Notes under the pieces: model-generated | Database searches by the model: none | What the model saw: only the letters and a program-made list of their open reading frames with translations | What the model was told of the DNA's origin: nothing | Program-made: the position numbers and the translations under genes | In this document: piece by piece, positions 6,183-29,100 of the stretch | Position numbering within the stretch: position 1 is the first letter of the stretch | How the letters are laid out: the number at the start of each line of letters is the position of its first letter | DNA from: Saprospiraceae bacterium | Lineage (GTDB): Bacteria > Bacteroidota > Bacteroidia > Chitinophagales > Saprospiraceae | DNA: 34,387 nucleotides | Direction: 5' to 3' | NCBI GenBank assembly: GCA_020627825.1 | Contig: JAHDGD010000031.1 | Coordinates: forward strand, 1 to 34,387

Positions 6183-7049
6183 TTAAAGTAAATAAAATAC
6201 TAGGAATACAAATACCCATACAAGGTCGACAAAGTGCCAGTAGAGTCCTATTTTCTCTACCATTTCATATCCATTTTTTCGTTCTACATAGACACCACTA
6301 GCTGCATTTAGCATGATGATGATTAAGAAGACAACACCAGAAAATACGTGAAATCCGTGAAAACCTGTAATAAAGAAAAACAAGGCACCAAAAGCTTTAG
6401 GACCGAATTCTTGTTTTTTTACAACGCCTGAATCTTCACCACTCGTTACTTGATATTCTCTTTGAACGAATTCTCCATTGTGCTTGTGGATGAGGTAACT
6501 TTCACCAGCTTCGAAAGTTTCTTTTTCTGCACCAGGAGCATATGGATCACCATGATCATCCATAAGATAGATACCACTCTCTGTATGGGTTCCAAACGGA
6601 TTTGTAGTTACGGACATGTGTTCATGACCGATAAGATTCGTCCATTCCCATGCTTGACAGCTCAAGAAACCGATACCACCTATAATAGTAAGGATCATCC
6701 AAAACACCACACCTTTTCTATTTTCTCTAGCCCCTTCTTGCACAGCACGTACCATTGTAACAGAAGATACAATCAACAAGAATGACATAACGGTTACGAA
6801 AATAAGAGGTAACCCTGAAAATCCACCTGGAAATGTTTGGAAAACAAAGTCTGGAACAGGCCAAGTAGGTGAACTAATTCTTAATGCACCGTATGCAATT
6901 AAGAAACCGCTGAATGTAAAAGCATCAGACAGTAAGAAATACCACATCATTAACTTTCCATAAGAAGCTTTAAAAGGCCTTTTTCCACCTTTCCATTCTT
7001 CCCCTGGAATCGCTTCAACACCATGCTGAATTGCTGTATCTGTAGCCAT
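6183..7049 (-). CDS. cytochrome c oxidase subunit III, long form
   Basis: A 288-residue heme-copper oxidase subunit III. The N-terminal KLMMWYFLLSDAFTFSGFL, the CQAWEW segment with its following GHEH, and the C-terminal FITGFHGFHVFSG and YWHFVDLVWVFVF are family hallmarks. Between helices, about residues 143-213 form a hydrophilic insertion (DDHGDPYAPGAEKE and onward) not present in the shorter copy next to it. Subunit III has no redox metal and helps proton uptake and stability of subunit I. It lies 17 bases after the short copy. A tandem pair of subunit III genes is common in Bacteroidota ACIII-oxidase clusters, so both are probably parts of one enzyme. Confidence 0.92.
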   Translation of the reverse strand: MATDTAIQHGVEAIPGEEWKGGKRPFKASYGKLMMWYFLLSDAFTFSGFLIAYGALRISSPTWPVPDFVFQTFPGGFSGLPLIFVTVMSFLLIVSSVTMVRAVQEGARENRKGVVFWMILTIIGGIGFLSCQAWEWTNLIGHEHMSVTTNPFGTHTESGIYLMDDHGDPYAPGAEKETFEAGESYLIHKHNGEFVQREYQVTSGEDSGVVKKQEFGPKAFGALFFFITGFHGFHVFSGVVFLIIIMLNAASGVYVERKNGYEMVEKIGLYWHFVDLVWVFVFLVFYLL

Positions 7050-7066
7050 TTATATTATAGTTTAGT

Positions 7067-7654
7067 TTATCGAACAAATGTTAAAAATAAAAATAAGTAT
7101 ATCCATAGTATACCAAGGAAGTGCCAAAACTGCACAACCAAAGAAAATCGTTCTTTTCTGTACTCCTTGACTTCAAATTTCAGCGTAAAAGCGTGTATCA
7201 TCGCAACGATCAATGTAGCCAAGCCACCAATGATATGCGCTGCATGTACCCAATTTATCAAATAGAAAAAAGAAGAAGAAGGATTAATTTTAAAATCAAC
7301 TCCTCTATTAAATAATGTATCCCATCCTATACTTTGTAACGCAAGAAATGAAATACCAAGTACGAAAGTTGCTACAAGCATACTTTTGTACAAAAATTCT
7401 TTACCATTCTTATAGGCAGTATAAGATACCTGTATAGTAACACTACTCAAAATAATAACGATAGTACTGATATTAAATATGGATGGGATAGCAAACTCTA
7501 GCCAATTACCCGCAGCATTTCGAACGATGTAAGCACTAGTAAAAGCTGCAAACATCATAAATAGAGATGCCATAGATATCCACAATCCAAATTTTTGAGG
7601 ATTGATTCTACCTGGTTGATATTGATCTTTATTGTCTACCACAAATGTTCTCAT
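7067..7654 (-). CDS. cytochrome c oxidase subunit III, short form
   Basis: A 195-residue subunit III-like protein with five transmembrane helices, the usual size of bacterial five-helix subunit III. It begins with a hydrophilic segment and QKFGLWISMASLFMMFAAFT. The end carries NWVHAAHIIGGLATLIVAM and VVQFWHFLGILWIYLFLF, the His-containing helices typical of the family. Its ATG follows the ctaB stop directly (TAAATG on the minus strand), so translation is likely coupled. It is distinct in sequence from the longer subunit III downstream and lacks that protein's hydrophilic insertion. Confidence 0.92.
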   Translation of the reverse strand: MRTFVVDNKDQYQPGRINPQKFGLWISMASLFMMFAAFTSAYIVRNAAGNWLEFAIPSIFNISTIVIILSSVTIQVSYTAYKNGKEFLYKSMLVATFVLGISFLALQSIGWDTLFNRGVDFKINPSSSFFYLINWVHAAHIIGGLATLIVAMIHAFTLKFEVKEYRKERFSLVVQFWHFLGILWIYLFLFLTFVR

Positions 7655-8566
7655 TTATATGCCATTTGATCCAATGATGAATAAAATCAATACAACCGGT
7701 AAGTAAGCAAAAGAGGCATACATCAATTTCTTAGCAGAATCCGTATCTCCATTCTTATACAAGGTCCAACCTTTTGAAGCATACCATAAATTAACGATAG
7801 AAATAAGAACAAAAGAAATGACGCCTATTTCAGCTGTAATAAATGCAATTGAACAAAGAATAAGTAATGGAAGTGTCCATACAAATGAGGACAAGCCTAT
7901 TCTACTGTCTCTTACCTGATCCTTTACAGGAAGTAACTTATAACCTGCTCTTTTATAATCATCATACGACATCCATCCAATTGCCCAAAAATGTGGAAGT
8001 TGCCAAAAGAACTGCACTGCAAATAAAAGGATAGCGATCGTAGTTATTTCACCTTGGAACGCAGTTGTTCCGATCAACACAGGCAATGCCCCAGGAATTG
8101 CTCCTATCCATACCGCTACAGGTGAAAAACGTTTAAAAGGTGTATAAACGAATGCATAAGATACCAAAGCAGCTGTACCTAAAAAAGCTGATAAAGGATT
8201 GAACATTGCTAGAATCGTAATCCCAAACAACGCCATAATTCCTGCGTATAAAACCGCCTCTGAAATCGTCATCCTTCCTGTAGGGATCGGTCTATTCTTA
8301 GTGCGTTCCATCAAGGAGTCATACTCTTTTTCTAGTACTTGGTTCAACGCATTTGCGCTTCCTGTAACTAGGAATCCACCTAATGTCAAAAGTGCTAATT
8401 GTAACCAATTAAAAGATCCTTGTGCTACTATCAAATAAGCAAGCACTGATGATAATACAACGGTAATATTAAGTCTAAACTTAACTAAAACCTTGAAATC
8501 CTCCCACTTACTAACTTTTACCGAGTTAGCTTCTGAAGTATTATATGTTGCAACTCTATCTTTCAT
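7655..8566 (-). CDS. ctaB: protoheme IX farnesyltransferase (heme O synthase)
   Basis: A 303-residue UbiA-superfamily prenyltransferase that adds a farnesyl group to heme B to give heme O, the precursor of heme A for the oxidase encoded beside it. Nine hydrophobic segments are visible. The first Asp-rich motif reads NQVLEKEYDSLMERTKNRP, where the middle Asp of the classical NxxxDxxxD is Glu. The second motif region reads DDYKRAGYKLLPV. The ATG overlaps the coxA stop by one base (TAATG on the minus strand). Heme A synthase (CtaA), needed for the next step, is not in this window and must be encoded elsewhere if the enzyme uses heme A. Confidence 0.95.
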   Translation of the reverse strand: MKDRVATYNTSEANSVKVSKWEDFKVLVKFRLNITVVLSSVLAYLIVAQGSFNWLQLALLTLGGFLVTGSANALNQVLEKEYDSLMERTKNRPIPTGRMTISEAVLYAGIMALFGITILAMFNPLSAFLGTAALVSYAFVYTPFKRFSPVAVWIGAIPGALPVLIGTTAFQGEITTIAILLFAVQFFWQLPHFWAIGWMSYDDYKRAGYKLLPVKDQVRDSRIGLSSFVWTLPLLILCSIAFITAEIGVISFVLISIVNLWYASKGWTLYKNGDTDSAKKLMYASFAYLPVVLILFIIGSNGI

Positions 8567-10410
8567 TAATGACTATCCGTTTCTCCTTCTTGTAGTGGGA
8601 CATATTGAGGTATAAACTCATGTCCATCTTTTCCATAATCATAAGCCCATCTGTGAACAGATGGTATATTTCCTTCCCAGTTACCATGACCAGGTTCAAT
8701 ATCTGTTGTCCATTCAAGTGTTGTAGCTCCCCATGGATTTTTAGTCTTCATTTTTCTTCCGTACCATATACTATAGAAGAAATTCACAACAAACAATACT
8801 TGAACTGCAAATACAACGATTGCAGCAATTGTTATAAATTGATTCATTAACGTGAAGTCTTTGAAAGCATCGAAAGAATCGAATCTATAGTAACGTCTAG
8901 GTACTCCTGCCATTCCAATGTAGTGCATTGGCCAGAATACTGCATAAGCACCAATCATTGTACCCCAAAAGTGAATCTTACCAAGCGTTTCGTTCATAAA
9001 TCGTCCATACATTTTAGGGAACCAATGATAAATTCCTGCGAACATTCCGAAAAATGCTGCAACACCCATTACGATATGGAAGTGAGCAACCACAAAATAT
9101 GTATCATGCATTTGAATATCAATAGCAGAGTTTCCTAGGAAGATTCCTGTTAAACCTCCAGAAATAAACATTGAAACAAAACCAATAGAAAATAACATTG
9201 GTGTATTCAAGCGGATATTACCTCCATACAAAGTGGTAATCCAGTTGAAGACTTTTACAGCCGAAGGAACAGCAATAATCAACGTAAATACAACGAAGAA
9301 ATTAGAAATCATTGGGTTTACACCCGACATAAACATGTGGTGTGCCCATACGATGAATGATAAAAATCCTATGGCCATGATCGAGTATACCATCGCTTTG
9401 TATCCGAATATAGGCTTTCTCGCATGAACCGATAATACTTCAGAGACAAGCCCCATGGCAGGTAATATAATGATATATACCTCAGGGTGTCCTAAGAACC
9501 AGAATAAATGCTGATATAATATTGGAGAACCACCTACATTTGGTAAAGCTTCTCCGTTTACAAAAATTTCACTTAAAAAGAAAGATGTTCCAAGCCCTCT
9601 ATCACACATCAGCATCAAAAATCCTGATACCAATACAGGGAATGAAAGCAATCCTAAAATCGCAGTTACAAAAAATGCCCATATAGTCAATGGCATTCTC
9701 CATAAACTCATACCTTTTGTTCTTAAATTAAGAACCGTGGTTATATAATTTATACCACCTAGTAGAACAGAAACGACAAAAAGAGTCAAACTCAATAACC
9801 ATAGTGTCATACCAGGCCCAGATCCATCAGAAGCTTGTGGCAAAGCACTTAATGGTGGATAGGCAGTCCAACCTCCAGCAAATGGACCTGTTGAAACGAA
9901 TAAACTATAAAACATTACAGCTCCTGCCAAAAAGAAGAACCAGTAAGACAGCATATTCATAAAAGGCGATGCCATATCTCTTGCGCCTAGTTGTAATGGA
10001 ATGAGCAAGTTACTGAACGTACCACTTAATCCCGCTGTCAATACAAAGAATACGAGTATTGTACCGTGCATGGTAACCAATGCATAATAAAATTCAGGAG
10101 CTAATGAACCTATTCCTGTTGCTGGATCTACTACAATCCACTTACCAAGTAATGGTTTTATCCAAGTCATACTCTCTTCAGGAAAACCTAGTTGCATTCT
10201 GAAAATAATAGACATAGCTGCCCCTATTAATGCCCAAAACATCCCTGTTATAAGGAATTGTTTTGCAATCATTTTATGATCCATACTGAATATATAGTGT
10301 CCTATAAATCCAGATTTGAAACGATCTCCATGATGATGATCATGAAAATGGTCGTCATAACCTTGCTCTTTTACAAGTGTGTCTTCGTCGTAATTTAACA
10401 ATTCAGCCAT
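8566..10410 (-). CDS. cytochrome c oxidase subunit I (A1-type heme-copper oxidase)
   Basis: A 614-residue catalytic subunit that reduces O2 to water and pumps protons. Ligands are in place: His115 (MHGTILVFF) and His445 for the low-spin heme, His443 (VAHFHIVMG) for heme a3, and His308, His357 and His358 for CuB. HPEVY at 308-312 holds both the helix VI Glu (Glu310) and the cross-linked Tyr312, which place it in the A1 subfamily. Lys386 in PSAVKVFNW is the K-channel lysine. The N terminus carries a His/Asp-rich patch (DDHFHDHHHGDRF, residues 19-31) ahead of the first helix. It lies 11 bases after the subunit II gene and overlaps ctaB by one base. Confidence 0.97.
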   Translation of the reverse strand: MAELLNYDEDTLVKEQGYDDHFHDHHHGDRFKSGFIGHYIFSMDHKMIAKQFLITGMFWALIGAAMSIIFRMQLGFPEESMTWIKPLLGKWIVVDPATGIGSLAPEFYYALVTMHGTILVFFVLTAGLSGTFSNLLIPLQLGARDMASPFMNMLSYWFFFLAGAVMFYSLFVSTGPFAGGWTAYPPLSALPQASDGSGPGMTLWLLSLTLFVVSVLLGGINYITTVLNLRTKGMSLWRMPLTIWAFFVTAILGLLSFPVLVSGFLMLMCDRGLGTSFFLSEIFVNGEALPNVGGSPILYQHLFWFLGHPEVYIIILPAMGLVSEVLSVHARKPIFGYKAMVYSIMAIGFLSFIVWAHHMFMSGVNPMISNFFVVFTLIIAVPSAVKVFNWITTLYGGNIRLNTPMLFSIGFVSMFISGGLTGIFLGNSAIDIQMHDTYFVVAHFHIVMGVAAFFGMFAGIYHWFPKMYGRFMNETLGKIHFWGTMIGAYAVFWPMHYIGMAGVPRRYYRFDSFDAFKDFTLMNQFITIAAIVVFAVQVLFVVNFFYSIWYGRKMKTKNPWGATTLEWTTDIEPGHGNWEGNIPSVHRWAYDYGKDGHEFIPQYVPLQEGETDSH

Positions 10411-10421
10411 TGCTTACGTGT

Positions 10422-11918
10422 TTACTTTTTAGAAATTTTAAACTCAATTCTTCTATTCTCCGCTTTTCCCTCTTGTGTATCATTAGAGGCCACAGGATTA
10501 TCTGCCCCAAAACCTACAGCCGTAAGTTTTTTAGCATCAATTCCATGTGAAGTCAAGTACTCCATCACAGATTCTGCACGAGAATTTGATAAAGCTTGAT
10601 TTGCAGATGGATCTCCAATATTGTCTGTATACCCTTCTATTTGTACATCAATTTCAGGATTGTCTGTCATGATCTGTACAAGGTTATCCAGTTCATATCG
10701 AGAATTAGCAGTTAGATTAGCTGAACCAGTATCAAAATTTATATTCTTTAGCCTTAAGGAAACAGACGAATCGTCACTTTCCATAGCTTGATTGAATTCT
10801 TTAAAAAATGCTCTTCTCTGGCTATTAATCTCAACATCCAAAAGCGCGTCTTTGTTTGGATCATTTGCCGTATTTCTTATATTACTTAAGTAATACGACT
10901 TTTGATTGGATAGCCATTCTTCATATTCTTCTTCAGAAACTATTTTTACGATTTTACGCATACTATAATGTCCTTTTCCACAAAGCTCTGCGCAAGCTAA
11001 TTCGTAATTAAAATTTTCTGCTTTTGTTCCTATACTAGGATCTGCAGGATCGTAAGGTGCATCCCATTCTGGACGACCATATAATCTTTCTTTGAATTCT
11101 TCGGTAGTTACTGTTGGTGTAAAAACAAAATAAGACGGTAAACCAGGGACAGCATCCATTTTCACTCTGAAGTGAGGTAAATAGAAGTTGTGTAAGACAT
11201 CTTTTGCTGTAATACGCACACGAACTTTTTTATTTACAGGAAGAACAATTTCATCTGCAATAAAATCATCGTGATTCTTTTTATCTGTCCACACTTGTCC
11301 GAGAGGGTTTACACCCAAAACGATATCTTCATAGTTTCGCTCTCCTAACAAATTATCATAACCAGGATAACGAATATCCCAACCAAATTGCCAGCCAGTC
11401 GCTTCAATTTCTATTACTTCTTCATCAACAGGTACATCCGCCATAACATCGTTCCATACAACTAGACCTTTCACAACTAAGATGGTCATAATCAATGCTG
11501 GAACACCAGTCCACACATATTCTAGTGTATTATCATGCGAAAAGAACAATGCTTTTCTCCCTATTTTTTCTCTGTATTTATAAGCATACCAGAATAATAG
11601 GATTTGCGTAATGATAAATACAATTCCAGTAAAGACAAGCGTTAGGTTGAATACTCCATCAATCAAAGCTCCGTGTTCAGAGGCAGCTTTAAGAGGTCCA
11701 TATCCTAGCATATAATCTTTATAATAGATAGAAGATGCTACAGTAAGAACTAAGAAAGCAACCATAAATAAAACCAACCAAACCGCCGTACGATTATTGG
11801 CTTGGAGTCTCGATTGTTCTTCTCCTCTGATTTTACTGGATAATTCAGTAACTTTCGAAATCTGAATCGTAATTACAACCAGAATAAGAAGGATCAAAAA
11901 GATTATTAATGTTGTCAT
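10422..11918 (-). CDS. cytochrome c oxidase subunit II fused to a C-terminal OmpA-like domain
   Basis: A 498-residue subunit II. Four hydrophobic helices lie near residues 1-20, 46-66, 90-112 and 130-150; the classical subunit has two. The periplasmic cupredoxin domain has a complete CuA site: His243 (DVLHNF) and CAELCGKGHYSM with Cys309, Glu311, Cys313, His317 and Met320. It has no c-type heme motif, so electrons must come from an ACIII cytochrome. After a linker (about 335-386), residues 387-498 form an OmpA C-terminal type domain (NINFDTGSANLTANSRYEL, then IEGYTDNIGDPSANQALSNS and ENRRIEF). Asp432 and Arg447 match the pair that binds diaminopimelate in OmpA proteins. The stop codon and frame are clean. 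The fusion would let the oxidase grip peptidoglycan. Confidence 0.95.
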   Translation of the reverse strand: MTTLIIFLILLILVVITIQISKVTELSSKIRGEEQSRLQANNRTAVWLVLFMVAFLVLTVASSIYYKDYMLGYGPLKAASEHGALIDGVFNLTLVFTGIVFIITQILLFWYAYKYREKIGRKALFFSHDNTLEYVWTGVPALIMTILVVKGLVVWNDVMADVPVDEEVIEIEATGWQFGWDIRYPGYDNLLGERNYEDIVLGVNPLGQVWTDKKNHDDFIADEIVLPVNKKVRVRITAKDVLHNFYLPHFRVKMDAVPGLPSYFVFTPTVTTEEFKERLYGRPEWDAPYDPADPSIGTKAENFNYELACAELCGKGHYSMRKIVKIVSEEEYEEWLSNQKSYYLSNIRNTANDPNKDALLDVEINSQRRAFFKEFNQAMESDDSSVSLRLKNINFDTGSANLTANSRYELDNLVQIMTDNPEIDVQIEGYTDNIGDPSANQALSNSRAESVMEYLTSHGIDAKKLTAVGFGADNPVASNDTQEGKAENRRIEFKISKK

Positions 11919-11949: not shown

Positions 11950-13272
11950 TTAAGCGTGATGGTGTAAACTTTCTTCTAAGAATGGATCCTTCTCAGGATT
12001 CAATTGAGCCGAAGAAAGTGTTCTCCAGAAAAAGAACAAAAACAAGGATAAAAATCCAATCATTGTTCCAAATTCTAAAAATCCTGGAAAATTAAAACCC
12101 ATTAAAAATTCAGAAGCTCCATGTGCCATATCACCTGCGTGTTCTGCACCATGTCCTGCCATATCAGCACCATGATCTGTACCATGTCCTGAATCTCCTC
12201 CATGACCATGACCTCCAACTTCATGAGCTGTATGCAAGATTCCTGGTTTTAACATCAAAAAGAAGTCCCACCAGTGTCCGAAAAATACAGCACCTGCAGT
12301 AAAAAGCAATGTTCCATATTTTTTCTTGTTGTCATTTCTCATCAAAATAAAGAATGGCAAAATGAAATTTATAATCAAGTTCCCATAAAATAAAACAGGA
12401 TAATGATCAATTCGTTCTTTGAAATAGATGGTTTCTTCACCTACATTTCCATACCATATCAACATGTACTGAGAGAACCATAAATAGGTCCAGAAAATAC
12501 TAAATGCAAAAAGCAATTTACCTAAATCATGTAAGTGTTCCGTTGTTACATTTTCGAAATATCCTCTTCCTTTCATGTAGGAAATTATCATGATAGTCAA
12601 TGCCATCATGGAGACGAACCAACTTGCCCCTGTATACCAAGCGAAAAGTGTGCTGTACCAGTGTGAATCTACTGACATGATCCATAACCATACCATTGCC
12701 GCACTTGTAAATCCTGCTATCGGTAAGAAAATCGCAGCATAAGTTCTTAATCTTCTATGATGTGAAAAATTTGAATCGCCACCATTTTTATCTTCATCCA
12801 ATGAAATCGCACGCATTCTGTTTGCAAAGAAGTACCATACAGCAACTATGATTCCACCAAATATTACATACATATTTGCATTCAAGAATCCTGCCTTCCC
12901 TTGTATGATGACATCTGTTTCACGAGTTGCTTCATCTGCCCAGTGATACAAATGATGCCATCCAAAATACACTCCCAAACCAAGAATCAACATCAAGCCA
13001 AATCCAACAATTAAAAATTGACTCATGGACTCCCACACTCTTTTAAACACAGTATACCATCCTGCCCAAGCAGTTATGGAAGCTGATAAAAAGAATAAAG
13101 CCATCAATGCAATACCTGTAAAAAATACAGAATTGTGAAGAATATTAGACCAAAAGCGTGTATGTAGATCATCATCACCTACATATGTTAATACTAAGCA
13201 CAATACTCCAATCAACATTCCTACTCCTAGGAGCATTGTTTGTCGTGCTGGTATTTTATACGTATTATCCAT
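11950..13272 (-). CDS. actF: alternative complex III subunit ActF
   Basis: A 440-residue polytopic protein of about ten transmembrane helices, recognised as the second NrfD-like membrane subunit of the quinol:cytochrome c oxidoreductase by sequence (ITAWAGWYTVFKRVWE, WYSTLFAWYTGASWFV, FWTYLWFSQYMLIWYGN) and by its place after actE. It helps form the membrane arm. Residues 347-385 hold a His/Gly/Asp-rich insertion with nine histidines just before the last helix, and the C terminus ends LHHHA. It lies 32 bases after actE and 31 bases before the oxidase subunit II gene, bridging the ACIII and oxidase halves of the operon. Confidence 0.93.
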   Translation of the reverse strand: MDNTYKIPARQTMLLGVGMLIGVLCLVLTYVGDDDLHTRFWSNILHNSVFFTGIALMALFFLSASITAWAGWYTVFKRVWESMSQFLIVGFGLMLILGLGVYFGWHHLYHWADEATRETDVIIQGKAGFLNANMYVIFGGIIVAVWYFFANRMRAISLDEDKNGGDSNFSHHRRLRTYAAIFLPIAGFTSAAMVWLWIMSVDSHWYSTLFAWYTGASWFVSMMALTIMIISYMKGRGYFENVTTEHLHDLGKLLFAFSIFWTYLWFSQYMLIWYGNVGEETIYFKERIDHYPVLFYGNLIINFILPFFILMRNDNKKKYGTLLFTAGAVFFGHWWDFFLMLKPGILHTAHEVGGHGHGGDSGHGTDHGADMAGHGAEHAGDMAHGASEFLMGFNFPGFLEFGTMIGFLSLFLFFFWRTLSSAQLNPEKDPFLEESLHHHA

Positions 13273-13304: not shown

Positions 13305-14309
13305 TTAATGATCGTGGTCTCCATCATGATCATCGTGGTCATCATGATTGTGCGCATTTCCATCATGATCATGATCATCTCCATGACCAGCATCATGATT
13401 GTGGTCATCTCCATGGTGGTCATGAGAATCGCCATGTGCATCATGTCCATGCTCATCTCCGTGAGCAGTATGACTTGAAGATTCCATCATTTTCATCTTT
13501 TTAGCAGCCAATTGCTCTGTAAATTGCGCACTTAATGAACTCGCATATTTACCTGGCGTAGCGCCTTCATTTAATGTATTTTCTTCCTCATTATACGCTA
13601 GCTTCTTTTCTTTTGCTTGCAACGACCTGATATAATGTATAACCTGCCATCTTTCTTCGTAAGATAGTTTATCAGCATATCCTCCCATCAAATTCTTTCC
13701 ATATACAATTGCATGGTAGTATTGACCATTACTTAGATTGATGTATTCATCCAACAATAAATTAGCTGGTTGAGCAGGATACTTCCCATCGTCACGAACT
13801 AAATAACCAGCTCCATCAGCTTTTTCCCCATGACAAATGCCACAATGAATTTCATACAATTCTTTAATGCCTTTCATTTTAGCATCTTCTATAGGAAATG
13901 GATTATTTACTAATTCTGCTGCTGCTTGTAATCTTCCTTCATCTGTATCTGGATAAGGATAAGGAACACTTCCATTCACTGGAATCGAAATACCGGCATT
14001 TGATAGTTCCCCTTCGAAACTCATCATACGATCCATATCACTCGCACTTCCGTTTAACCCCGCTGCCCCTCTAGCTACTGTCCCTTTTACTGGTTCTCCT
14101 GGCTTTGCATAATTGTAGTACTCCTCTCTTGTACCCCACGTGTTATTGTAGTAGTAAGCATACGTATTGGCTTCATATGCTATAGAGTGCGCCATATCAG
14201 GCATAAATTCGCTTCCTGTTGTATTGTCCTTTGCCTGTTGGCAAGAACTTACAAGCAAACTGAAAAAGATTGCTGCTAAGAAAAGAATGTGGTTATTTTT
14301 ATTTCTCAT
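13305..14309 (-). CDS. actE: alternative complex III subunit ActE: mono-heme lipoprotein with His/Asp-rich tail
   Basis: The ATG at 14309 gives 334 residues (a TTG one codon earlier is also in frame). The N terminus is a lipoprotein signal with lipobox LVSSC (Cys23). One c-type heme site, CGICH (156-160), and a probable axial Met in YGKNLMGGYADKLSYEERW (Met208) form the cytochrome domain, which takes electrons from ActA or hands them toward the oxidase CuA. From about residue 280 to the end, 55 residues are almost only His, Asp, Gly, Ala and Glu, with 19 histidines. Such a tail is not needed for heme binding and looks like a metal-binding arm. It lies between actD and actF, with 16- and 32-base gaps. 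Confidence 0.95.
   Translation of the reverse strand: MRNKNNHILFLAAIFFSLLVSSCQQAKDNTTGSEFMPDMAHSIAYEANTYAYYYNNTWGTREEYYNYAKPGEPVKGTVARGAAGLNGSASDMDRMMSFEGELSNAGISIPVNGSVPYPYPDTDEGRLQAAAELVNNPFPIEDAKMKGIKELYEIHCGICHGEKADGAGYLVRDDGKYPAQPANLLLDEYINLSNGQYYHAIVYGKNLMGGYADKLSYEERWQVIHYIRSLQAKEKKLAYNEEENTLNEGATPGKYASSLSAQFTEQLAAKKMKMMESSSHTAHGDEHGHDAHGDSHDHHGDDHNHDAGHGDDHDHDGNAHNHDDHDDHDGDHDH
13308..13472 (-). repeat. low-complexity CAT/GAT-rich tract encoding the ActE His/Asp tail
   Basis: The plus strand here is dominated by repeated CATGATCATGATCATC- and CCATGGTGGTCATGAG-like words that encode His-Asp, His-Gly and Asp-His units on the minus strand. The near-repetition at DNA level suggests the tail grew by slippage or small duplications and may vary in length between strains. 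Confidence 0.8.
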
Positions 14310-14328
14310 CAATTAATGATTCTTAGAC

Positions 14329-14850
14329 TTATATAATTTTAGAGCTTACTTCTTCAGCTCCAGTTTCTTTCAAAAATGATTCAGCTACAGACGCGTCTAT
14401 ATGTGCTTTATCAAATGCAATACAAAATTTATCGTCTGTGATTCTATTATCTAGTATAGGTAATTTAATGCCAGGCCCCATTCCATTTACAATATAGAAA
14501 GTTACAACCATTCCTATTGCTGCAAACAATACAGTAAGCTCGAAAGTAATAGGAATAAAAGAAGGAACTGCCCAATATGGTTTTCCACCAAATATTACTG
14601 GCCAGTCTTTTGTAAATATCCATGTCATTCCTAAGAATGCTGTCATCGTACCCAAACTACCATAGATAAAACCACCTATGTGTAATCTTGATTCTTCAAA
14701 TCCCAATAATGGATCCAATCCGTGAACTGGGAAAGGAGTAAAAACTTCCATGATTTCAAGATGCTTCTCATTGGCTACTTTTACAGCCTTCATTAGAACT
14801 TCTTCATCATTGTAAAGTCCGTATATTACGTCTTTTGTCGCTTTTGCCAT
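14329..14850 (-). CDS. actD: alternative complex III subunit ActD (DUF3341 type)
   Basis: A 173-residue subunit with a cytosolic N-terminal part and two transmembrane helices (about 80-100 and 108-130). IYGLYNDEEVLMKAV and EVFTPFPVHGLD are characteristic of the DUF3341 family, which is ActD of alternative complex III; the region resembles a small ferredoxin-like regulatory fold. It carries no cofactor. The gene lies 10 bases after actC and 16 bases before actE, in the conserved ACIII order. Confidence 0.93.
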   Translation of the reverse strand: MAKATKDVIYGLYNDEEVLMKAVKVANEKHLEIMEVFTPFPVHGLDPLLGFEESRLHIGGFIYGSLGTMTAFLGMTWIFTKDWPVIFGGKPYWAVPSFIPITFELTVLFAAIGMVVTFYIVNGMGPGIKLPILDNRITDDKFCIAFDKAHIDASVAESFLKETGAEEVSSKII

Positions 14851-14860
14851 TTTTGTTTAA

Positions 14861-16273
14861 TTAATGGTTATCAGTTGAAACTGCTTCTTCATGATGATGG
14901 TGTGCATTTGCTCCACTATATTGGTCACCTGAAGACTTTAAAATACTTTTCACTTCCGCAATTGCTACCACTGGTGCAACTCTTACAAACAATAAATACA
15001 ATACAAAGAAAATACCTATCGTACCTGTGAATATACCGATCTCTACCCATGAAGGCTTATAGAAAGACCAGCTTGATGGTAAATAATCTCTTGCTAATGT
15101 AGTTGCAATGATCACAAATCGCTCAAACCACATTCCTATGTTTACAACTATTGATAAGAAGAACGTCCACACAATATTTCTTCGAATTTTCCTACTCCAG
15201 AAAAACTGTGGAGATATTACATTACAGAACATCATTCCAAAATAAGACCACCAATAAGGTCCTAGTGCTCTATTAAAGAATGCAAATTGCTCATATACAT
15301 AACCTGAATACCACGCAATAAACAACTCCGTTAAATAAGCTACACCTACAATAGTCCCAGTTACTAGAATGACTTTATTCATTGACTCAATATGAGCCAA
15401 CGTGATATAATCTTCTAATTTCAAAATCTTTCTTGTAATCAACATTAAGGTCAATACCATCGCAAATCCTGAGAAGATCGCTCCAGCTACGAAATATGGT
15501 GGAAAGATTGTTGTGTGCCATCCTGGTATAACGGAAGTCGCGAAATCAAAACTTACAATGGTGTGTACGGAAAGTACCAACGGAGTTGCTAGTCCTGCCA
15601 AAACAAGAGAAATAGACTCCCATCTTTGCCAGTGTTTCGCAGATCCATTCCATCCAAATGATAAGAAATGATAAATTTTCTTTCTGATCCCTCTTGCTCT
15701 ATCTCTTACTGTCGCGAAATCAGGCACTAACCCTGTGTACCAGAACAATAAAGAAACGGTAAAATAAGTAGATATTGCAAATAAATCCCATAATAAAGGA
15801 GAGTTAAAATTAGGCCATAGTGGTCCTCTTGTATTCGGATAAGGGAAGAAGTAGAATACTACCCATGCACGACCTACGTGTATTCCTGGGAAGAGTGCCG
15901 CACATAAAACGGCAAATATCGTCATCGCTTCTGCCGCTCTGTTTACTCCCGTTCTCCATTTCTGTCTGAATAATAAAAGAATCGCAGAGATCAAGGTACC
16001 CGCGTGACCAATTCCGATCCACCATACGAAGTTGGTAATATCCCATCCCCATCCTATGGTTCTGTTCAAATGCCATGATCCAATTCCGAACCAGATGGTC
16101 CAAGCGATACAGAAAACTCCGAATGTAGCTAACGCTGCAGCTACAGAAAACGCAATGATCCAACTAAGACCTGGAGCCTTCTCCGTAGGAGAGACTAAAT
16201 CCTCAGTGATCTGATGATACGTTTTACTGCCGGTTATTAATGGCTCCCTAATTGCTGAAACAGGTGCACTCAT
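14861..16273 (-). CDS. actC: alternative complex III subunit ActC (NrfD/PsrC-like quinol-binding subunit)
   Basis: A 470-residue polytopic membrane protein with about ten helices. TIGWGWDITNFVWWIGIGHAG and the long PFPVxx-free core with GAIFSGFAMVLTLML and FVIIATTLARDYLPSSW match the NrfD/PsrC-like ActC subunit, which holds the menaquinol oxidation site at the membrane-periplasm side close to ActB. The soluble C terminus ends with AHHHHEEAV, another His-rich patch of this cluster. It lies 22 bases after actB. No c-heme or Fe-S motif is present, as expected. Confidence 0.95.
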   Translation of the reverse strand: MSAPVSAIREPLITGSKTYHQITEDLVSPTEKAPGLSWIIAFSVAAALATFGVFCIAWTIWFGIGSWHLNRTIGWGWDITNFVWWIGIGHAGTLISAILLLFRQKWRTGVNRAAEAMTIFAVLCAALFPGIHVGRAWVVFYFFPYPNTRGPLWPNFNSPLLWDLFAISTYFTVSLLFWYTGLVPDFATVRDRARGIRKKIYHFLSFGWNGSAKHWQRWESISLVLAGLATPLVLSVHTIVSFDFATSVIPGWHTTIFPPYFVAGAIFSGFAMVLTLMLITRKILKLEDYITLAHIESMNKVILVTGTIVGVAYLTELFIAWYSGYVYEQFAFFNRALGPYWWSYFGMMFCNVISPQFFWSRKIRRNIVWTFFLSIVVNIGMWFERFVIIATTLARDYLPSSWSFYKPSWVEIGIFTGTIGIFFVLYLLFVRVAPVVAIAEVKSILKSSGDQYSGANAHHHHEEAVSTDNH

Positions 16274-16295
16274 ATTATTTTAATCTTAAGGTTAT

Positions 16296-19200
16296 TTAAG
16301 CGTCAAGTTTTTCGTTACGGTTATTTACTCTCATCTGATATTGAACAGAAGAACGTACGTTGACTTCTTCTAATACGATAAAGTTTAACGGATTCTTTAA
16401 CTTAGAATCTAAGTTTCCACCTTTATTGTTCATATCACCGAAAGTGATAGCGCCAGTAGGACAAGCTGTTTGACAAGCAGTCTTCACATCGCTGTCTCGC
16501 AATTTACGTCCTTCTAGTTTTGCTGTTAATTTTCCTGACTGAATTCTTTGTACACAGAAACTACACTTCTCTATTACCCCTCTTGAACGCACTGTTACAT
16601 CAGGATTCAATACCATTCTAGTTAAGTTGTCCGCACCAAATGGCGTATTTTCACCATTTAATGTAGGTTGATTACCAGGGAAAATATCTGCTGTTGTATA
16701 ATCCAACCAGTTGAATCTTCTTACTTTATATGGGCAGTTATTAGCACAATATCTTGTCCCTACACATCTATTGTAAGTCATTTGGTTCAATCCTTCTGAA
16801 GAGTGATTGGTGGCATTCACTGGACATACATTCTCACAAGGAGCATTATCACAGTGTTGACACATCATCGGCTGATATACAGTGTTCGGGTTTTCCAATT
16901 CTCCATAGTAATATCGGTCGATTCTCAACCATGTCATTTCATGGTGTCTTGCAACTTCTGTTTTTCCTACAACTGGAACATTATTCTCCGCCATACAAGC
17001 AACCGTACAAGCTGAACAACCAGTACATGAAGTCAAGTCAACATGCATTCCCCAGTGATGCCCATTATTATATTTGTAATCGTGACCACCATAGATCTGT
17101 GCATCATTTAAATGCTGAGCGTGTTCTCTTCTCTTTTTCAATTCAGCAACACTTTCTCCTAGTTCTTCTAAAGATGAATAATACATCACAGAACGATTCT
17201 TTAATGCACCTTGGTAGCCTTGTACGCCCATTCCATAATCGAATGTCACCAATGCTGCTTCATCTGCATTTATCTCTTTTCCTGTTGCTTTATCTGTATC
17301 GGTTACACCATAAGTGTGGTGATACTGAACAGAAGAATAATCTTTTTCTTTACCTACTTTCTTACTGATTTCGATATTGGAAACAGAATAACTTCTATTT
17401 CCACTTGCATCCATTCCAACAAATGGATTCATATCAACTCCTACACCTTGTGCACAAGCTCCTGCTACAGTACGTCCATATCCTAATGCTAAGGCCGCAG
17501 TTCCCGGTGCTTGACCAAACTGTTGCACTACTGGAACAGTAATTTTATCACCATTCACTGTTACATTTACAAGATCCCCATCTTTCAATCCGTTCATTGA
17601 AATCATTTTTCGGAACCCGTCAAATTCTACAGGAATAGCCAAGTAATTTCCCCAAGAAGTTCTAGTAATAGGATCAGGCATTTCCATTAACCAAGGGTTA
17701 TTCGTATTCGCACCATTTCCTAAAGCGCCTTCGAAGATCTTAAGTTCTATGCCGTCTCCTCCCACTGGCTTAGTAATTCCTGAAGCACTAGCAGAACCTG
17801 AAAATCCTGAAGCTCCACTTGTTGTGTTTACAGAAACAAAACCATCGTGTAATGCTGTTTCCCAATACCGCTTCAGGTTACTACTCGAAGACTGATTTTG
17901 AAAAGCATTTTCAGCAAAAACATTTGACACAAAATTCATGATGTCTCCACCATAATCAACACCTGCCCAAGTTAAAAGTGTTTCTGCATCCTGTCGAGTA
18001 TCAAAAATTGTATTGATAGCAGGCTGTTGAAGCATGTATTTGCTCGGATTTGGCTGTGCATCTCCCCATGACTCAAGATAATGACTTGAAGGTGCCGTAA
18101 TCATAGCACCATCTACAGATTCATTATTTGAATACGCAATCGCTAACTTATTTTTCACTTTTCCTAATGCAGCAGAAAATTTTCCGCCAGCTGAGAAATC
18201 ATAAGCTGGATTTACATCCATTAGTACGATTGTATCAACTGAACCGGAATTCATCTGATTCATTAATTGCATCATGGCTTTATCGTCTCCTTTGAACGTC
18301 ATCAAAGCATCCGACATATCCATCGTATTTCCTATGTTTCCTAGAGCATTATTGATCGCTAGTACCAACATTTGCTCAGCTTCATTATTCGTTCCACACA
18401 CTACAAGCGATTTCCCGGAAGCTTTTTTAAGGTCATCTGCCATTAACGAAACAGCTTTTTTAGCTTTTGCATTCAAAGCACCTCCAGGCAAGCTTGAACC
18501 TGTAACAGCATTGTATAAAGCAACAATAGCAGCACCTTGCTCAGAAGGTTTAACTAATACTCTATTGTCTGCATTGGATCCAGTTAAAGACATATGCGTC
18601 TCGACTTGATATAATCTGTTCATTTTAGCTCCAGAAACCGTTTTGATTTTTCTTTTCGAAATAAAATCTACACTGTTTTTATTGGAATCTCCCCAGTTAC
18701 CTAGGAAGTCTGCATCGAAACTTACAATGACATCCGCTTTATCGAAATGATAATTTGGAAAGGCTCGTAGGCCAAAAGCTTTTTCTGTTGCATCGAGTAA
18801 TGCTGAGTGTGATACGGTATCGTATTGCACATGCTTAGCATTGTATTTTGAAGTAAAAGCGTCTATTGCTTTTTGTAAAGATGGACTGAAAATAGATGGT
18901 GTTACGAGAACAACAGAGTTAGATGATGCAAGTACTTCTATTGCCTTTTTATCTATTTCTGCCCATGTAGAATCTCCACCATTCATCATAGGATTCTTGT
19001 AACGTGCTGTATCATATAAACTTAATACAGATGCTTGAGCGCGAGCAGAAGTTCCTCCATAACCAATTAAATCATTTCCTTCGATTTTGATTGGTCTTCC
19101 TTCTCTTGTTTTTACAAGTATGGATTCACACTCGCTTCCGTTGGTATACGTAGAAGCATAATATGTTGCAACTCCTGGAACGATAGTATCTGGTTTTACC

Positions 19201-19439
19201 GTATACGGTATCGCTCGCTTAATAGGAATATCACAACTTGCAGCCATTGCGGCAGCCCCAACTCCGAATCCGAGCATTTTAAGAAAATCTCTTCGATTTC
19301 CTTCAACTTGTTCAACAGCTTCTTCGTTTCCTAATATCTCAGGCAAAGAAGCAAACTCTTGCTGGGAAATTTCAATAAAGGATGGGTCGTTCGTGAGATC
19401 TTTCTCTCCTATCCAAACACCTTGATTTTTTCCTTTCAT
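16296..19439 (-). CDS. actB: alternative complex III subunit ActB (molybdopterin-oxidoreductase-like plus Fe-S domain)
   Basis: A 1047-residue periplasmic iron-sulfur subunit. A Tat signal NRRDFLKMLGFGVG (residues 48-61) lies after an N-terminal extension of about 47 residues, as in TAT-variant ACIII proteins. It is followed by the lipobox-like AASC with Cys69. Residues 70-780 resemble molybdopterin oxidoreductases, but ActB is known not to bind the cofactor. The C-terminal ferredoxin-like part has four cysteine groups: C805/808/811/815, C860/863/868/872, C892/898/902 and C959/962/989/993. The group with three cysteines fits the [3Fe-4S] cluster reported for ACIII beside three [4Fe-4S] clusters. 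It passes electrons from quinol to the hemes of ActA. It lies 44 bases after actA. Confidence 0.97.
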   Translation of the reverse strand: MKGKNQGVWIGEKDLTNDPSFIEISQQEFASLPEILGNEEAVEQVEGNRRDFLKMLGFGVGAAAMAASCDIPIKRAIPYTVKPDTIVPGVATYYASTYTNGSECESILVKTREGRPIKIEGNDLIGYGGTSARAQASVLSLYDTARYKNPMMNGGDSTWAEIDKKAIEVLASSNSVVLVTPSIFSPSLQKAIDAFTSKYNAKHVQYDTVSHSALLDATEKAFGLRAFPNYHFDKADVIVSFDADFLGNWGDSNKNSVDFISKRKIKTVSGAKMNRLYQVETHMSLTGSNADNRVLVKPSEQGAAIVALYNAVTGSSLPGGALNAKAKKAVSLMADDLKKASGKSLVVCGTNNEAEQMLVLAINNALGNIGNTMDMSDALMTFKGDDKAMMQLMNQMNSGSVDTIVLMDVNPAYDFSAGGKFSAALGKVKNKLAIAYSNNESVDGAMITAPSSHYLESWGDAQPNPSKYMLQQPAINTIFDTRQDAETLLTWAGVDYGGDIMNFVSNVFAENAFQNQSSSSNLKRYWETALHDGFVSVNTTSGASGFSGSASASGITKPVGGDGIELKIFEGALGNGANTNNPWLMEMPDPITRTSWGNYLAIPVEFDGFRKMISMNGLKDGDLVNVTVNGDKITVPVVQQFGQAPGTAALALGYGRTVAGACAQGVGVDMNPFVGMDASGNRSYSVSNIEISKKVGKEKDYSSVQYHHTYGVTDTDKATGKEINADEAALVTFDYGMGVQGYQGALKNRSVMYYSSLEELGESVAELKKRREHAQHLNDAQIYGGHDYKYNNGHHWGMHVDLTSCTGCSACTVACMAENNVPVVGKTEVARHHEMTWLRIDRYYYGELENPNTVYQPMMCQHCDNAPCENVCPVNATNHSSEGLNQMTYNRCVGTRYCANNCPYKVRRFNWLDYTTADIFPGNQPTLNGENTPFGADNLTRMVLNPDVTVRSRGVIEKCSFCVQRIQSGKLTAKLEGRKLRDSDVKTACQTACPTGAITFGDMNNKGGNLDSKLKNPLNFIVLEEVNVRSSVQYQMRVNNRNEKLDA

Positions 19440-19483
19440 TATATTAAGTTATATATTATCGCAATTAGTATAATTCGTTTTTC

Positions 19484-20914
19484 TTAGTAGTGGCACTTTT
19501 GACATTCAAGTCCACCTATATCTTCCACAGTCACTTTCAATCGATCACCTGCTTTCAATTCTTTGTGATAATCTTCATACGCGCTATAATATCCTTCTTC
19601 TTCGAAATTCACTTCTGTTTGTCTGTGACAATTGATACACCACCCCATTGATAATGGCGACATTTGTTGAACAACTTCCATTTCTTCTACAGCACCGTGA
19701 CACGTTTGACATTCTACTTTTCCTACGCTTACGTGTTGTGCGTGATTAAAGTAAACATGGTCGGGCAAATTGTGGATACGAACCCATTCTATTGGCCCTT
19801 TTACTGTTTTTTTCTCTCTATTCGTCAACTTATCAACAAGCTCTTTCCATTGATCATTTGCTAAATCGTTCAAGTCATCTTCATCTGCATCAGCGAATTT
19901 TTCATTAAACTCTTTATTTGCTTTTACCATCCAAGACTTGTACAATGCTTCTACTTCACTTTCTGGCATGTCATCGTAATTCTCGATGTATTTATTATTG
20001 ATCGGATCGAATCCTACAGAAGCATAAATTTTCGTAATTTCTGCAGTACCATGCTCACTTCCATAATTAATAGCACGGTGACAATTCATACAGGTATTAG
20101 TCGCTGGAATAACGGAATGCTTTGAACGTCTTGCCCCATCGTGACAATATTGACAATCAATTTTATTCAATCCTGCGTGTGTTGCATGCGAGAATTTTAT
20201 CGGTTGCTCAGGAGCATAGCCCTGTTGTCTTCCAAGACTAACTGCATTATTTACTGTTGTGTATCCGCCCAAGATGATCAAGGCAAATAATACAAATCCT
20301 ATAAGACCTTTACTGGTCAAAATATCAAGAATCGACTTACGTTCAATTAAAGCGTCTGGGTTTTCTTTTTTCGCAGCAATTACATTTAAGTTTCCTATTA
20401 CGCGCGCTAAAACCAATGCAAGCATTGCTAAAAACCCTAGAAGACCAGCATAAATCCATTTGCTAACACCTTTCTTTTCTACCACAGGACCATCAGGGTC
20501 TTTTGGACCTCCATCACCAGGAACACCAGCGACAACCAAATCAATGTAAGATAACAAAGATGCTATATTCTCATCCGTCAAGTTTGGAAATGCTGTCATT
20601 GCAACTTTATTGTACTGTTCGTACACTTCATTTGCCTTAGGGTGCCCACTTGCAATCAATGCTGGCGAGTTTCTTATCCATGCATACAAATCTTCAAGAG
20701 GCCAATCTGACCATCTTTCTTGAACACCTCCTAGTGCTGGACCTGTGAGGTTTTTCTTCATGTCTTTGGAGTGACATGTCGCACAGTAGTTACGGAAAAG
20801 GGTTTTCCCTTCGTCAGGATTTCCTTCTTGAGCAAAGGAAGTTGAAGTGAATCCCACCATAAAAATCAGGAGGAACAACGACTTCAAAATGGATGAAATA
20901 CATGTATTATTCAT
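19484..20914 (-). CDS. actA: alternative complex III subunit ActA with six c-type heme sites
   Basis: The ATG at 20914 gives 476 residues (a TTG two codons earlier is also in frame) with a signal peptide ending near TSFAQ. An N-terminal class I-like cytochrome domain has CATCH (from Cys44) and a probable axial Met in KVAMTAFPNLTDENI. Two transmembrane helices (about 153-172 and 204-220) place both soluble parts in the periplasm. The C-terminal multiheme domain has CQYCH (254), CMNCH (275), CQTCH (402), CINCH (426) and CQKCH (471). Five of the six hemes match the pentaheme core of ActA; the first belongs to the extra N-terminal domain. It is the first gene of the operon, behind the promoter at 20993-21024. 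Confidence 0.95.
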   Translation of the reverse strand: MNNTCISSILKSLFLLIFMVGFTSTSFAQEGNPDEGKTLFRNYCATCHSKDMKKNLTGPALGGVQERWSDWPLEDLYAWIRNSPALIASGHPKANEVYEQYNKVAMTAFPNLTDENIASLLSYIDLVVAGVPGDGGPKDPDGPVVEKKGVSKWIYAGLLGFLAMLALVLARVIGNLNVIAAKKENPDALIERKSILDILTSKGLIGFVLFALIILGGYTTVNNAVSLGRQQGYAPEQPIKFSHATHAGLNKIDCQYCHDGARRSKHSVIPATNTCMNCHRAINYGSEHGTAEITKIYASVGFDPINNKYIENYDDMPESEVEALYKSWMVKANKEFNEKFADADEDDLNDLANDQWKELVDKLTNREKKTVKGPIEWVRIHNLPDHVYFNHAQHVSVGKVECQTCHGAVEEMEVVQQMSPLSMGWCINCHRQTEVNFEEEGYYSAYEDYHKELKAGDRLKVTVEDIGGLECQKCHY

Positions 20915-20968
20915 AGTCAAAAAATCGACGTTTAATGTTTAATCAGCAGTCACTAAAAATTTACTTTT

Positions 20969-25056: not shown

Positions 25057-25088
25057 AACAAACCATATGGATAAGGTTGTTAGGTTTT
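25057..25088. terminator. possible bidirectional terminator between convergent genes
   Basis: AACAAACC (25057-25064) can pair with GGTTGTT (25075-25081) with one bulged A, and a T-rich stretch follows. It fills the 34-base gap between the ends of the kinase gene and porP. The stem is modest. Confidence 0.35.
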
Positions 25089-26145
25089 AAAATTTAGGAC
25101 AGGTAATAGGACGTCTATATCGCGTATCTCTATTCACATATTGCAGCGAGAATTCAAAAGCTCCTCTCCCACTATTAGCCAGGTCTAGACTTGAAGTTGT
25201 GATATCATAAGAGACTCCGAACAACCATGCCTCGTATTCAAAGACGGCACTGAATATAAGTGCATCGTTTACCAACACTTGCGGTTCACCTCGTACAATA
25301 CGTGTCCACATTCCAGCACGTAAAGCAACTTCTCTCCAATCACTGTCTTTATATCTCATTTGAAATCCTGGCATAAACATTCTAGAAGGACTTTGAAAAT
25401 AAGAGACGAAATTCGGCATGATACTTAGTTCTCTATTGAGAAGAATTTCCCCACCTCCATGAAGCGTAATCAATCGTTCCAATCGAACATCTCCAAATTC
25501 AGTTAATGAAATCTGAGGTCGATTAATATGCCTTGCAGCTGCCCCTATATAAAGGTTGTTTCGCTCACTAAAAAGAGCATAATACATTAATCCGAAGCCA
25601 AAATCTCCAAATAGAGGAGAATTTCCATTCATATTAATCAATTCTTCATTACTTGGTCTAGAGAAATCAACAGCTCCATTATTCGTATCAAATTGACTTC
25701 CGAACCATAGATTCGAAACGTCTACTGAATTCTGACCTGCTCCTACATTGAATCCTCCTACAAGATAATGATCAACATCAGAATACGCATTCAGACCGAG
25801 TTGTTTAATGTAAGCAATATTTAAATGGCCACTTTGCTGAATGTAAGAAGAAGTTCCAGATTCATCTCGAGTAAAGTTGATTCCATACGTTAAGAAATCA
25901 TTATTCTTAATGTTAATCTTCGAGTCAAATTGAGCACTTAAGGTTTTGTAAGATTTGGATCTATGAATATTACTCCATTGATCTCTATAATTTAAAGCAA
26001 AACGTTGTTGGCCATCAAACACGCCAGTCATTGCAGGATTTAAAATTACATTCGTATTGTAAAACTGCGAATAAATAGCATCTTGGGCTTTACCTACGAT
26101 AGCGCAAACGAGAAAAGACAATATGATGAATGTATGTTTTGCCAT
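25087..26145 (-). CDS. PorP/SprF family type IX secretion outer-membrane protein
   Basis: A 352-residue predicted outer-membrane beta-barrel with a signal peptide ending near VGKAQ. The N-terminal YSQFYNTNVILNPAMTG and RFALNYRDQWSNI are the hallmark of PorP/SprF proteins. These act with the type IX secretion system and are usually encoded next to a large secreted protein with a type B sorting domain, to which they are dedicated (SprF is needed for surface display of SprB in Flavobacterium johnsoniae). Here the ATG overlaps the stop of exactly such a gene by one base (TAATG on the minus strand), so this is very probably the partner of the 1847-residue protein. Confidence 0.94.
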   Translation of the reverse strand: MAKHTFIILSFLVCAIVGKAQDAIYSQFYNTNVILNPAMTGVFDGQQRFALNYRDQWSNIHRSKSYKTLSAQFDSKINIKNNDFLTYGINFTRDESGTSSYIQQSGHLNIAYIKQLGLNAYSDVDHYLVGGFNVGAGQNSVDVSNLWFGSQFDTNNGAVDFSRPSNEELINMNGNSPLFGDFGFGLMYYALFSERNNLYIGAAARHINRPQISLTEFGDVRLERLITLHGGGEILLNRELSIMPNFVSYFQSPSRMFMPGFQMRYKDSDWREVALRAGMWTRIVRGEPQVLVNDALIFSAVFEYEAWLFGVSYDITTSSLDLANSGRGAFEFSLQYVNRDTRYRRPITCPKF

Positions 26146-29100
26146 TATTTTATCAATGTTGTGTTTCCTGAATAAACATCTTTAAACCCATTAGTGAATT
26201 CTGCTTCAATAACCCAAGTATAAACACCAGGCATCATTTCTTTGCCTTTGAAGGTTCCATCCCACCCTCTGGAAGTGTCATTCACTTCGAAATCTGTATC
26301 CTCAAATAATACCTCGCCCCATCGGTCATATACTCTAAATGCATTAACTTTTACCCCTTCAATTCCAAATACCGATAACAAATCATTATTGAAATCCCCA
26401 TTTGGCGTAAAGCCAGTAGGAACAAATATTGCATCACTATTCTCAATAAATAAATTGATAAAATCATCAACGATACAATTTCGAGCATCCTGAACGACCA
26501 ATCTGTAGGACGCTTGTTTTTGTGCATCAAAAAACGGATTGATGCAATCATCACATGTTAATAGATCTAGATCAGGTGACTCCCATTTAAAAGTTAAAGG
26601 CGCTTGAAAATTATTGATCATTGGATCAAATTGATAAGTTTCACCAAAGTTCAAGAAAACATCAGGACCTAGATCTAACTCTAAAGGAGCAGGACTAAAT
26701 ATTTGCACATCGTTTATACTGTCAAGGCATCCATTTGCATCTTTCACATATACATTATACATTCCTTCTCTTAATCCGATTTGTTCAACAGAAGCATTAA
26801 ATATAAAGTTATCCAAACTATATATATAATTACCAGCCCCACCAAAAGCATCAATCAAAATAGATCCATTCTGTCCACCATCACAATCTACATCAAGTGT
26901 AGAAATATTAAATGACAAAGGCTCTTCTGGTTGACTTACGACAACTGAATCAATCACTTCACAATCTTTCGCATCTGTTACTGTAATATGATATGTACCG
27001 ATTTCTAAGTCTGTTATCTCATCAGCACTTTCTCCTGTAGACCAATTTAAATCGTACGGCTGAGTACCACCATTTGCAATGAGTTCAATTTCGCCACTTT
27101 CCTCACCAAAACAGAGCACATCAAAAACTCTGAAATTTAAAGTAATAGGAAATGGATCGTCAATACTAAATTGCTCAACTCCAGTACAGCCACTCATGTC
27201 TGTAATCGTTACATTGTAATTTCCACTTCTTAAATTTTTCGCATCAGGACCCTCTTGAAAATTAGTACCTTGCCCCCATTGGTAAGAATACCCTCCATTT
27301 CCACCAGTTCCTTCTATTACAATTATACCATCATTTCCTAAAGCACAATTTATAGAATCTACTAAAACAAGATCGGCACTTACAGGTTCAGGTGTTGGCA
27401 CTTCAACTTGAGTGACAGCTGAACATCCCAATTCATCAGTTACTATAACTTGTAGATCTTGTCCCCCTTTTAAATCAACTGCCTCTATATCAAATTGATT
27501 AGGAGACGATGTCCATAAGTAGGTATAATCATCTAAGTTTTGAGCAACATTTCCAACATTTATTTCTGTTACAATAGCTGATCCATCAAAAGATTCAAAA
27601 CATGTAGAAGTAAATGATTCTGTTTCAACTGAAATTTGTGCTCTTTCAATAATTTCGACTGAATCTACTGTAGAACAGGATGATCCATCAACAATTGTCA
27701 CATAATACCATCCAGGAGCTAGACCATTGATATTTGTAAATTTACTATCGTTACTCCATGTTATGTCATAAGGTAAAGTTCCTCCAGAAGGACTTACACT
27801 TGCAATACCATTTACAGCTCCAAAACACACTTCATCATTATCAGATATATTAGCATTTACTCCTGAATCAGGTTCCAAAATTTCATAATCTACTTGCACA
27901 ATACAATTTTGTGCATCTGTTAAAATTATAGTGTAAGTACCTGCAAATAAGTCCACTATATCCTCTTGATCACTAGTAAATCCATCAGGACCTATCCATT
28001 CAAATTCGTAAGGTTCTGTGCCACCTACAATAGTCAGATTTATAAAACCTGTATTATCACCTTTACATTGAATATTAAAAACTTCGTTTGTTATAACGAT
28101 CTCTTCAGGTTCAATTAATTCATACGTAGCTGTTGCAGAACAACCATCTGAATCAGTTACTGTAAGATCGTATATTCCACTGTCTACATTTATAATATCT
28201 TCCGTATTAGCAGTAAATAAACCTGGACCTACCCAACTGTATGAAAAAGGACCTGCGCCATTTATTACAGTGATGTCTATTGAAGCATCAGTGGCATTAA
28301 AACAGGATTCTTCTGTTTCTTCGCTATCAATTTCTATCTGAGCAGCTTCAAAAACATCTACACAAACTTCGAGTTCACAATTATTAGCATCAGTGAATAC
28401 AAGACAATATTCACCTGCTTGTAGATCAGTAATAGGGGAAAGAAATACGATATCATTCAAAGTAGCAACAATAGGATCTACACCACCTGAAACTGTCCAG
28501 GAGATTGTTCCATCAAAGCCACCAAAACAAGTAACAGAATCAACAACAAAGTCCACGACTATTGAATCTGGCGCTCCAATAATTACACTATCAACGGTTG
28601 TGCAATTATTAGCATCTGTGACAGTAACAAAATGTTGACCTGGACTCAATGATACTGCAGGGTTGGTCAATTCACCATTATCCCACTCAAAATCGAAAGG
28701 AGGGTTGTCTCCAATAACAGTAACTGTACCTGTTCCATTCTCTGAGTTAAAGCACAAGACATCTGAACCTTCAACTGAGGTTTCGATTTCAATTGGTTCT
28801 TCAATTATTACTTCAACGACAAGTGTACATGAATTAAGATCAGAAACGGTAACGTTATAAGTCCCTGCAAATAAGCTGTCAGCTGACAATCCTGTTTGAT
28901 TTAATGGATCTCCCCAATCAAATGTATAATCCGAAACGTCGTTAACTGTCCCTCCTGAAGGATTGATCGCTCCTTCGCCATCCATACCCCCAAAACAAGA
29001 AACATCGGAACTTAAACTAGTTGCTGAAATCGCAGTAGGTTCATCAAATTCTATATCTGAAATAATAGAACAATTATTCGCATCCGTCACTGTTATAAAT

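Follow-up and report, generated by a model that had tools for sequence, protein, structure and literature searches.

In a Saprospiraceae bacterium, subunit II of cytochrome c oxidase (CoxB) ends in an OmpA-type domain that in related operons sits at the end of ActE, a cytochrome of alternative complex III (ACIII). The domain is a property of the supercomplex rather than of subunit II alone. Its most probable role – we put the chance at about two in three – is to tether the ACIII-aa3 respiratory supercomplex to peptidoglycan. The gene was found in the window, by which we mean the whole 34,387-nucleotide stretch of contig JAHDGD010000031.1 that was analysed.

The fusion gene and its operon

The fusion gene lies at positions 10422-11918 of the minus strand (stop codon included) and encodes 498 amino acids in one frame that begins with ATG and has no internal stops; the assignment draws on the open reading frame, on Pfam and on full-length relatives in many genomes. 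An N-terminal transmembrane part (residues 1-160; 11439-11918) has four long predicted helices and a COX2_TM match at residues 79-149. There follow a periplasmic CuA (cupredoxin) domain (residues 161-340; 10899-11438), recognised by its COX2 match at 171-260, its ligands and its fold; a linker (residues 341-387; 10758-10898) that includes a predicted helix at 361-380 and is the least conserved region; and a predicted OmpA-type peptidoglycan-binding domain (residues 388-498; 10425-10757), assigned from PF00691 (395-489) and fold matches. The interval 10422-10760, which the first-pass annotation had singled out, corresponds to residues 387-498 plus the stop codon, that is, to the OmpA domain.

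The OmpA match covers profile positions 2-98 of 98 at an E-value of 7.3e-24 (84 bits against a cut-off of 27). PF00116 (E 7e-13) and PF02790 (E 4e-5) both score above the Pfam cut-offs; TIGR02866 reaches 124.5 bits, below its cut-off of 147.7. All CuA ligands are there (H243, C309, E311, C313, H317 and M320) and, like D432 and R447 of the OmpA domain, they are the same in every row of two alignments, one of 11 and one of 34 sequences. The COX2 domain with its transmembrane hairpin, the full ligand set and the adjoining coxA mark the protein as a subunit II, just as the whole-profile match, the fold and the Asp/Arg pair mark its C-terminal domain as OmpA-type. D432 (10623-10625, minus strand) and R447 (10578-10580, minus strand) are predicted ligands of diaminopimelate on the model of known OmpA-peptide complexes; the domain's fold matches include 3td5.

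An AlphaFold2 model of the protein, built from 34 sequences (mean pLDDT 80, pTM 0.65), predicts two separate folds. In VIA-align comparisons, model residues 64-343 resemble subunit II 7atn_B (Z 15.2). Residues 375-496 align over 117 positions with 5wtp_C, an OmpA C-terminal domain, at rmsd 1.9 A and Z 18.4, and have further matches in 6jfw, TagL, MotB and Pal. The first-pass annotation had described a complete CuA domain followed in the same frame by a full OmpA domain. Profile search (subunit II cupredoxin and OmpA in one frame), ligands and the predicted folds of both parts agree with that description, and the domain does lie on the periplasmic side of the membrane, where it had been placed.

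The gene belongs to a complete operon, the whole set on the minus strand, in the order actA-actB-actC-actD-actE-actF-coxB-coxA-ctaB-cox3-cox3. Genes actA to actD of ACIII (14329-20920) were recognised from Pfam matches to ActD, NrfD, 4Fe-4S and multihaem cytochrome families. They are followed by actE (13305-14312), a monoheme cytochrome c that lacks an OmpA domain here and is the alternative carrier in other lineages, and by actF (11950-13272), which lies between actE and coxB and was identified in the similarity-based survey of operons. Downstream, and together spanning 6183-10410, are coxA (8566-10410), ctaB (7655-8566) and the two subunit III genes (7067-7654 and 6183-7049). With act and cox genes in one operon, the supercomplex is present at the level of genes.

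Such supercomplexes of ACIII and oxidase are known in Flavobacterium johnsoniae and Rhodothermus marinus (PMC8552683, PMC5928083). The ACIII-aa3 system of the former and the ACIII-caa3 system of the latter share with the window the gene set and order actABCDEF-coxB-coxA, a CuA-type CoxB, a cytochrome ActE, ActD and an NrfD-like ActC. The window departs from these systems in its OmpA domain: in 17 act operons from other families neither CoxB nor ActE carries one, and the paper on the R. marinus structure (PMC5928083) mentions neither OmpA nor peptidoglycan.

Two observations touch other proteins of the window. Window ActE (13305-14312, minus strand) ends in a long tail rich in His and Asp (HGDEHGHDAHGDSHDHHGDD...) that may bind metal, and His-rich stretches occur also in window ActF and in some CoxB tails of relatives. 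At 25087-31688 (minus strand) a 1847-residue SprB-repeat protein with a type IX secretion signal domain stands beside a PorP/SprF protein; the two are a gliding/adhesion pair.

Distribution across genomes and between two subunits

A survey of coxB in 199 Saprospiraceae genomes, with open-frame lengths tabulated, listed 150 matches, and among these 121 frames are of at least 484 amino acids and 29 of at most 424. When 17 further long frames were opened, 15 contained the OmpA domain (one of them cut by a contig end); the remaining two were a decayed copy (L228) and a frame with an unrelated tail (L230), whose operon has the OmpA domain on ActE. A fair estimate is that about 110-118 of the 150 listed Saprospiraceae coxB frames carry the fusion. 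It is present in all 80 named loci, which were chosen by similarity to the fused protein and include Portibacter marinus, Membranihabitans marinus and Lewinella sp. W8; cultured isolates are among the carriers. The fusion is not absent from relatives but widespread in the family. Chance and assembly error are excluded because the same fusion, at full-length identities of 50-70%, recurs in dozens of other genomes.

Beyond Saprospiraceae, no fusion of OmpA to CoxB turned up in 395 genomes sampled across the phylum or in the 17 act operons examined from other families; 14 of these operons lie outside the order. Three single cases may be recorded here. One genome (G166) has two full act-cox operons (L073 and L074) with the fusion in both; in locus L036, from a genome of the window's genus (G003), coxB, actF, actC and actD are broken into several frames, probably through low assembly quality; and a contig labelled Thermoanaerobaculia (L135) bears a Saprospiraceae-like coxB-ompA and is probably misbinned.

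The domain has a second carrier. Ten Saprospiraceae operons without OmpA on CoxB (L028, L029, L046, L051, L057, L058, L059, L075, L182 and L230) have it C-terminally on ActE, whose gene lies two genes upstream. In a survey of the order, another Chitinophagales family (f13) showed the same arrangement in 14 of 16 opened operons (L030, L165-L172, L174-L176, L173 and L181; the two without it are L179 and L180), and two further families supply one case each (L177 in f2, L178 in f6). The OmpA domain of the window shares 56% identity with the domain on one of the ActE fusions. No other act or cox subunit in the surveyed operons carries an OmpA domain.

Among 169 distinct operons in which both genes are complete, 94 have the domain on CoxB only, 23 on ActE only, 52 on neither and none on both. 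The sample is not random, and the count of 52 is inflated because unfused cases were deliberately fetched. The complete lack of double fusions is informative, yet it is partly explained by shared descent.

Several long frames proved to be something else. Two loci (L173 and L181) appeared to have a separate OmpA gene between actE and actF, but the split is due to runs of N in the assemblies; for the residue counts both were taken as gapped ActE fusions, and both were excluded from the 169 complete operons. Long CoxB frames that lack an OmpA match have His-rich, Ala-rich or helical tails (L075, L230 and L035) or hold a decayed copy of the domain (L076 and L228), and in L075 and L230, where ActE carries OmpA, the CoxB tail is an unrelated long His-rich or Ala-rich one. 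Outside the class, long frames that matched the ActE query are not OmpA fusions but ActD-cytochrome fusions; those of L225 and L227 (family f33) and L226 (family f31), all from distant members of the phylum, match ActD as well as the monoheme cytochrome query.

Conservation, loss and history

The Asp432/Arg447 pair, which the first-pass annotation had placed correctly, is retained in 112 of 112 CoxB and 25 of 25 ActE copies of the domain; these copies were found by a profile of such domains, which extremely altered copies would escape. Pooled over 16 close pairs, dN/dS is about 0.08 for the OmpA domain, 0.03 for the CuA domain and 0.05 for both linker and membrane part – rough figures, with dS near saturation. 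Judged by these substitutions, the OmpA domain is under purifying selection.

The spacing of the domain differs between the two carriers. From the end of the CuA motif ELCGxxH to the OmpA domain there are 67-81 residues in 113 CoxB rows, and the linkers of ActE run to 37-182 residues, some of them long and rich in Ala, Lys and Glu. That of L173 (6467-7717) is very long and charged, with Ala-rich repeats (KAKADAEAEAAKAKEDA), and has a TolA-like appearance.

Loss is also seen. In two species of one genus (L076, 10777-12231, and L228) the OmpA domain of CoxB has decayed but is recognisable by alignment: a deletion has removed the HTD segment, and the Arg is gone as well. This is a natural loss of the domain's predicted binding site. 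The domain is not essential because it is missing in 52 of the 169 operons (a set enriched for unfused cases) and decayed in one genus; its repeated absence shows that the tether, if such it is, is dispensable.

When the states of the domain are mapped on a phylogeny built from CoxB, CoxA and ActC, at least 16 changes are required within Saprospiraceae; this number hinges on a FastTree topology in which several forks are weak. At least two fusion events are needed because two different genes carry the domain. In a tree of the OmpA domain (108 columns) the branching was too poor to tell transfer between subunits from repeated capture.

A predicted wall tether and its alternatives

If the domain is a tether, it would bind the diaminopimelate of stem peptides as do OmpA, Pal and MotB, and the linkers – about 47 residues on CoxB, 37 to about 180 on ActE – would span the distance to the wall. 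Each supercomplex would then have one flexible tether, limiting its lateral diffusion and joining inner membrane to wall at that place. Candidate gains for the cell are fixed respiratory patches, contact between inner membrane and wall, and stability of the supercomplex. In the R. marinus map (PMC5928083) ActE stands where it can hand electrons directly to subunit II, whose periplasmic domain adjoins the cytochromes of ACIII; because both C termini are periplasmic and the subunits adjacent in that map, a domain on either should project from the same face. In F. johnsoniae electron transfer to aa3 works without ActE, which aids growth (PMC8552683), and this dispensability fits a subunit free for another task. 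We lean towards a modular wall anchor of the Chitinophagales supercomplex, one per complex – on the oxidase in most Saprospiraceae, on ACIII in other lineages – that would hold the terminal respiratory chain at the peptidoglycan and thereby decide at which places in the cell oxygen is respired.

The proposal in the first-pass annotation that the supercomplex is fixed to the wall survives as the best reading, given clade-wide occurrence, retention of the binding residues and alternation between CoxB and ActE; that the domain grips peptidoglycan is something we still infer, and OmpA-like domains can also bind partners of other kinds. As to purpose, the annotation had offered the positioning of respiration or the bracing of the membrane, and nothing in the present evidence favours either.

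An alternative that merits consideration, though we think it unlikely, is that the domain serves assembly: as a protein-protein module it would dock on ACIII or on a periplasmic partner and stabilise the supercomplex without gripping the wall. Both carriers sit at the ACIII-oxidase interface (PMC5928083), and the length of the CoxB linker is nearly constant. However, the residues that are kept are the stem-peptide binding set, while the rest of the domain varies, and ActE linkers of such different lengths, some long and rich in Ala, Lys and Glu, are more easily reconciled with a flexible tether than with a fixed dock.

The domain could also be mainly mechanical, using an abundant inner-membrane protein as a brace between membrane and wall, with the link to respiration incidental. 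Aerobic oxidases are abundant, and MotB- and TssL-like proteins already connect inner membrane and wall. We regard this reading as rather improbable, since both fusions are on subunits of one supercomplex and the other subunits in the surveyed operons lack the domain. That a common OmpA domain became stuck to CoxB by shuffling and has no present use is very improbable: the genome of the window offers 18 other OmpA matches as possible donors, and the repeated absences and the decayed case would suit such an origin, but purifying selection, binding residues invariant across a family and the domain's occurrence on another subunit of the complex all speak against it. Erroneous joining of two genes, conceivable in a 297-contig assembly, is refuted by full-length relatives in many independent assemblies, cultured isolates included.

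The tether reading has parallels among membrane machines, on which OmpA-like tails are already known (MotB, TssL/TagL). OmpA proteins of the MotB/PomB/MotS, TssL-TagL and Dot/Icm systems, which tether their machines to peptidoglycan, end like the window protein in a linker and an OmpA fold (Z 14-16) that has the same binding motif, but those carriers are motors and secretion machines whereas this one is a respiratory-chain redox enzyme. With a membrane part that is COX2_TM, the window protein is no member of such machines, but it may work like them. YiaD, PA0833 and OmpA, the closest relatives of the domain by sequence and fold, are anchored by lipid or barrel and, unlike CoxB, have no redox part.

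There is one bioenergetic precedent. In photosystem I the PsaB chain 7f4v_aB, from an organism that we take to be Gloeobacter, has an OmpA-like tail at residues 754-864 (E 6e-12). Like CoxB of the window, it places such a tail at the C terminus of a bioenergetic electron-transfer complex; it differs in being a photosystem and a separate fusion event, and we know of no alternation of its tail between subunits. A literature search found no paper on this PsaB domain. For an OmpA-like tail on a respiratory oxidase or on ACIII we found no report in the open-access papers that were searched.

Respiratory complexes are usually treated as freely diffusing in the membrane, and the reason for bacterial supercomplexes is debated. 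If the tether is real, then nature has provided a tethered complex, untethered relatives and two points of attachment, with which one could test directly whether it matters that respiration is immobilised; and respiration would join the short list of processes that are physically tied to the cell wall.
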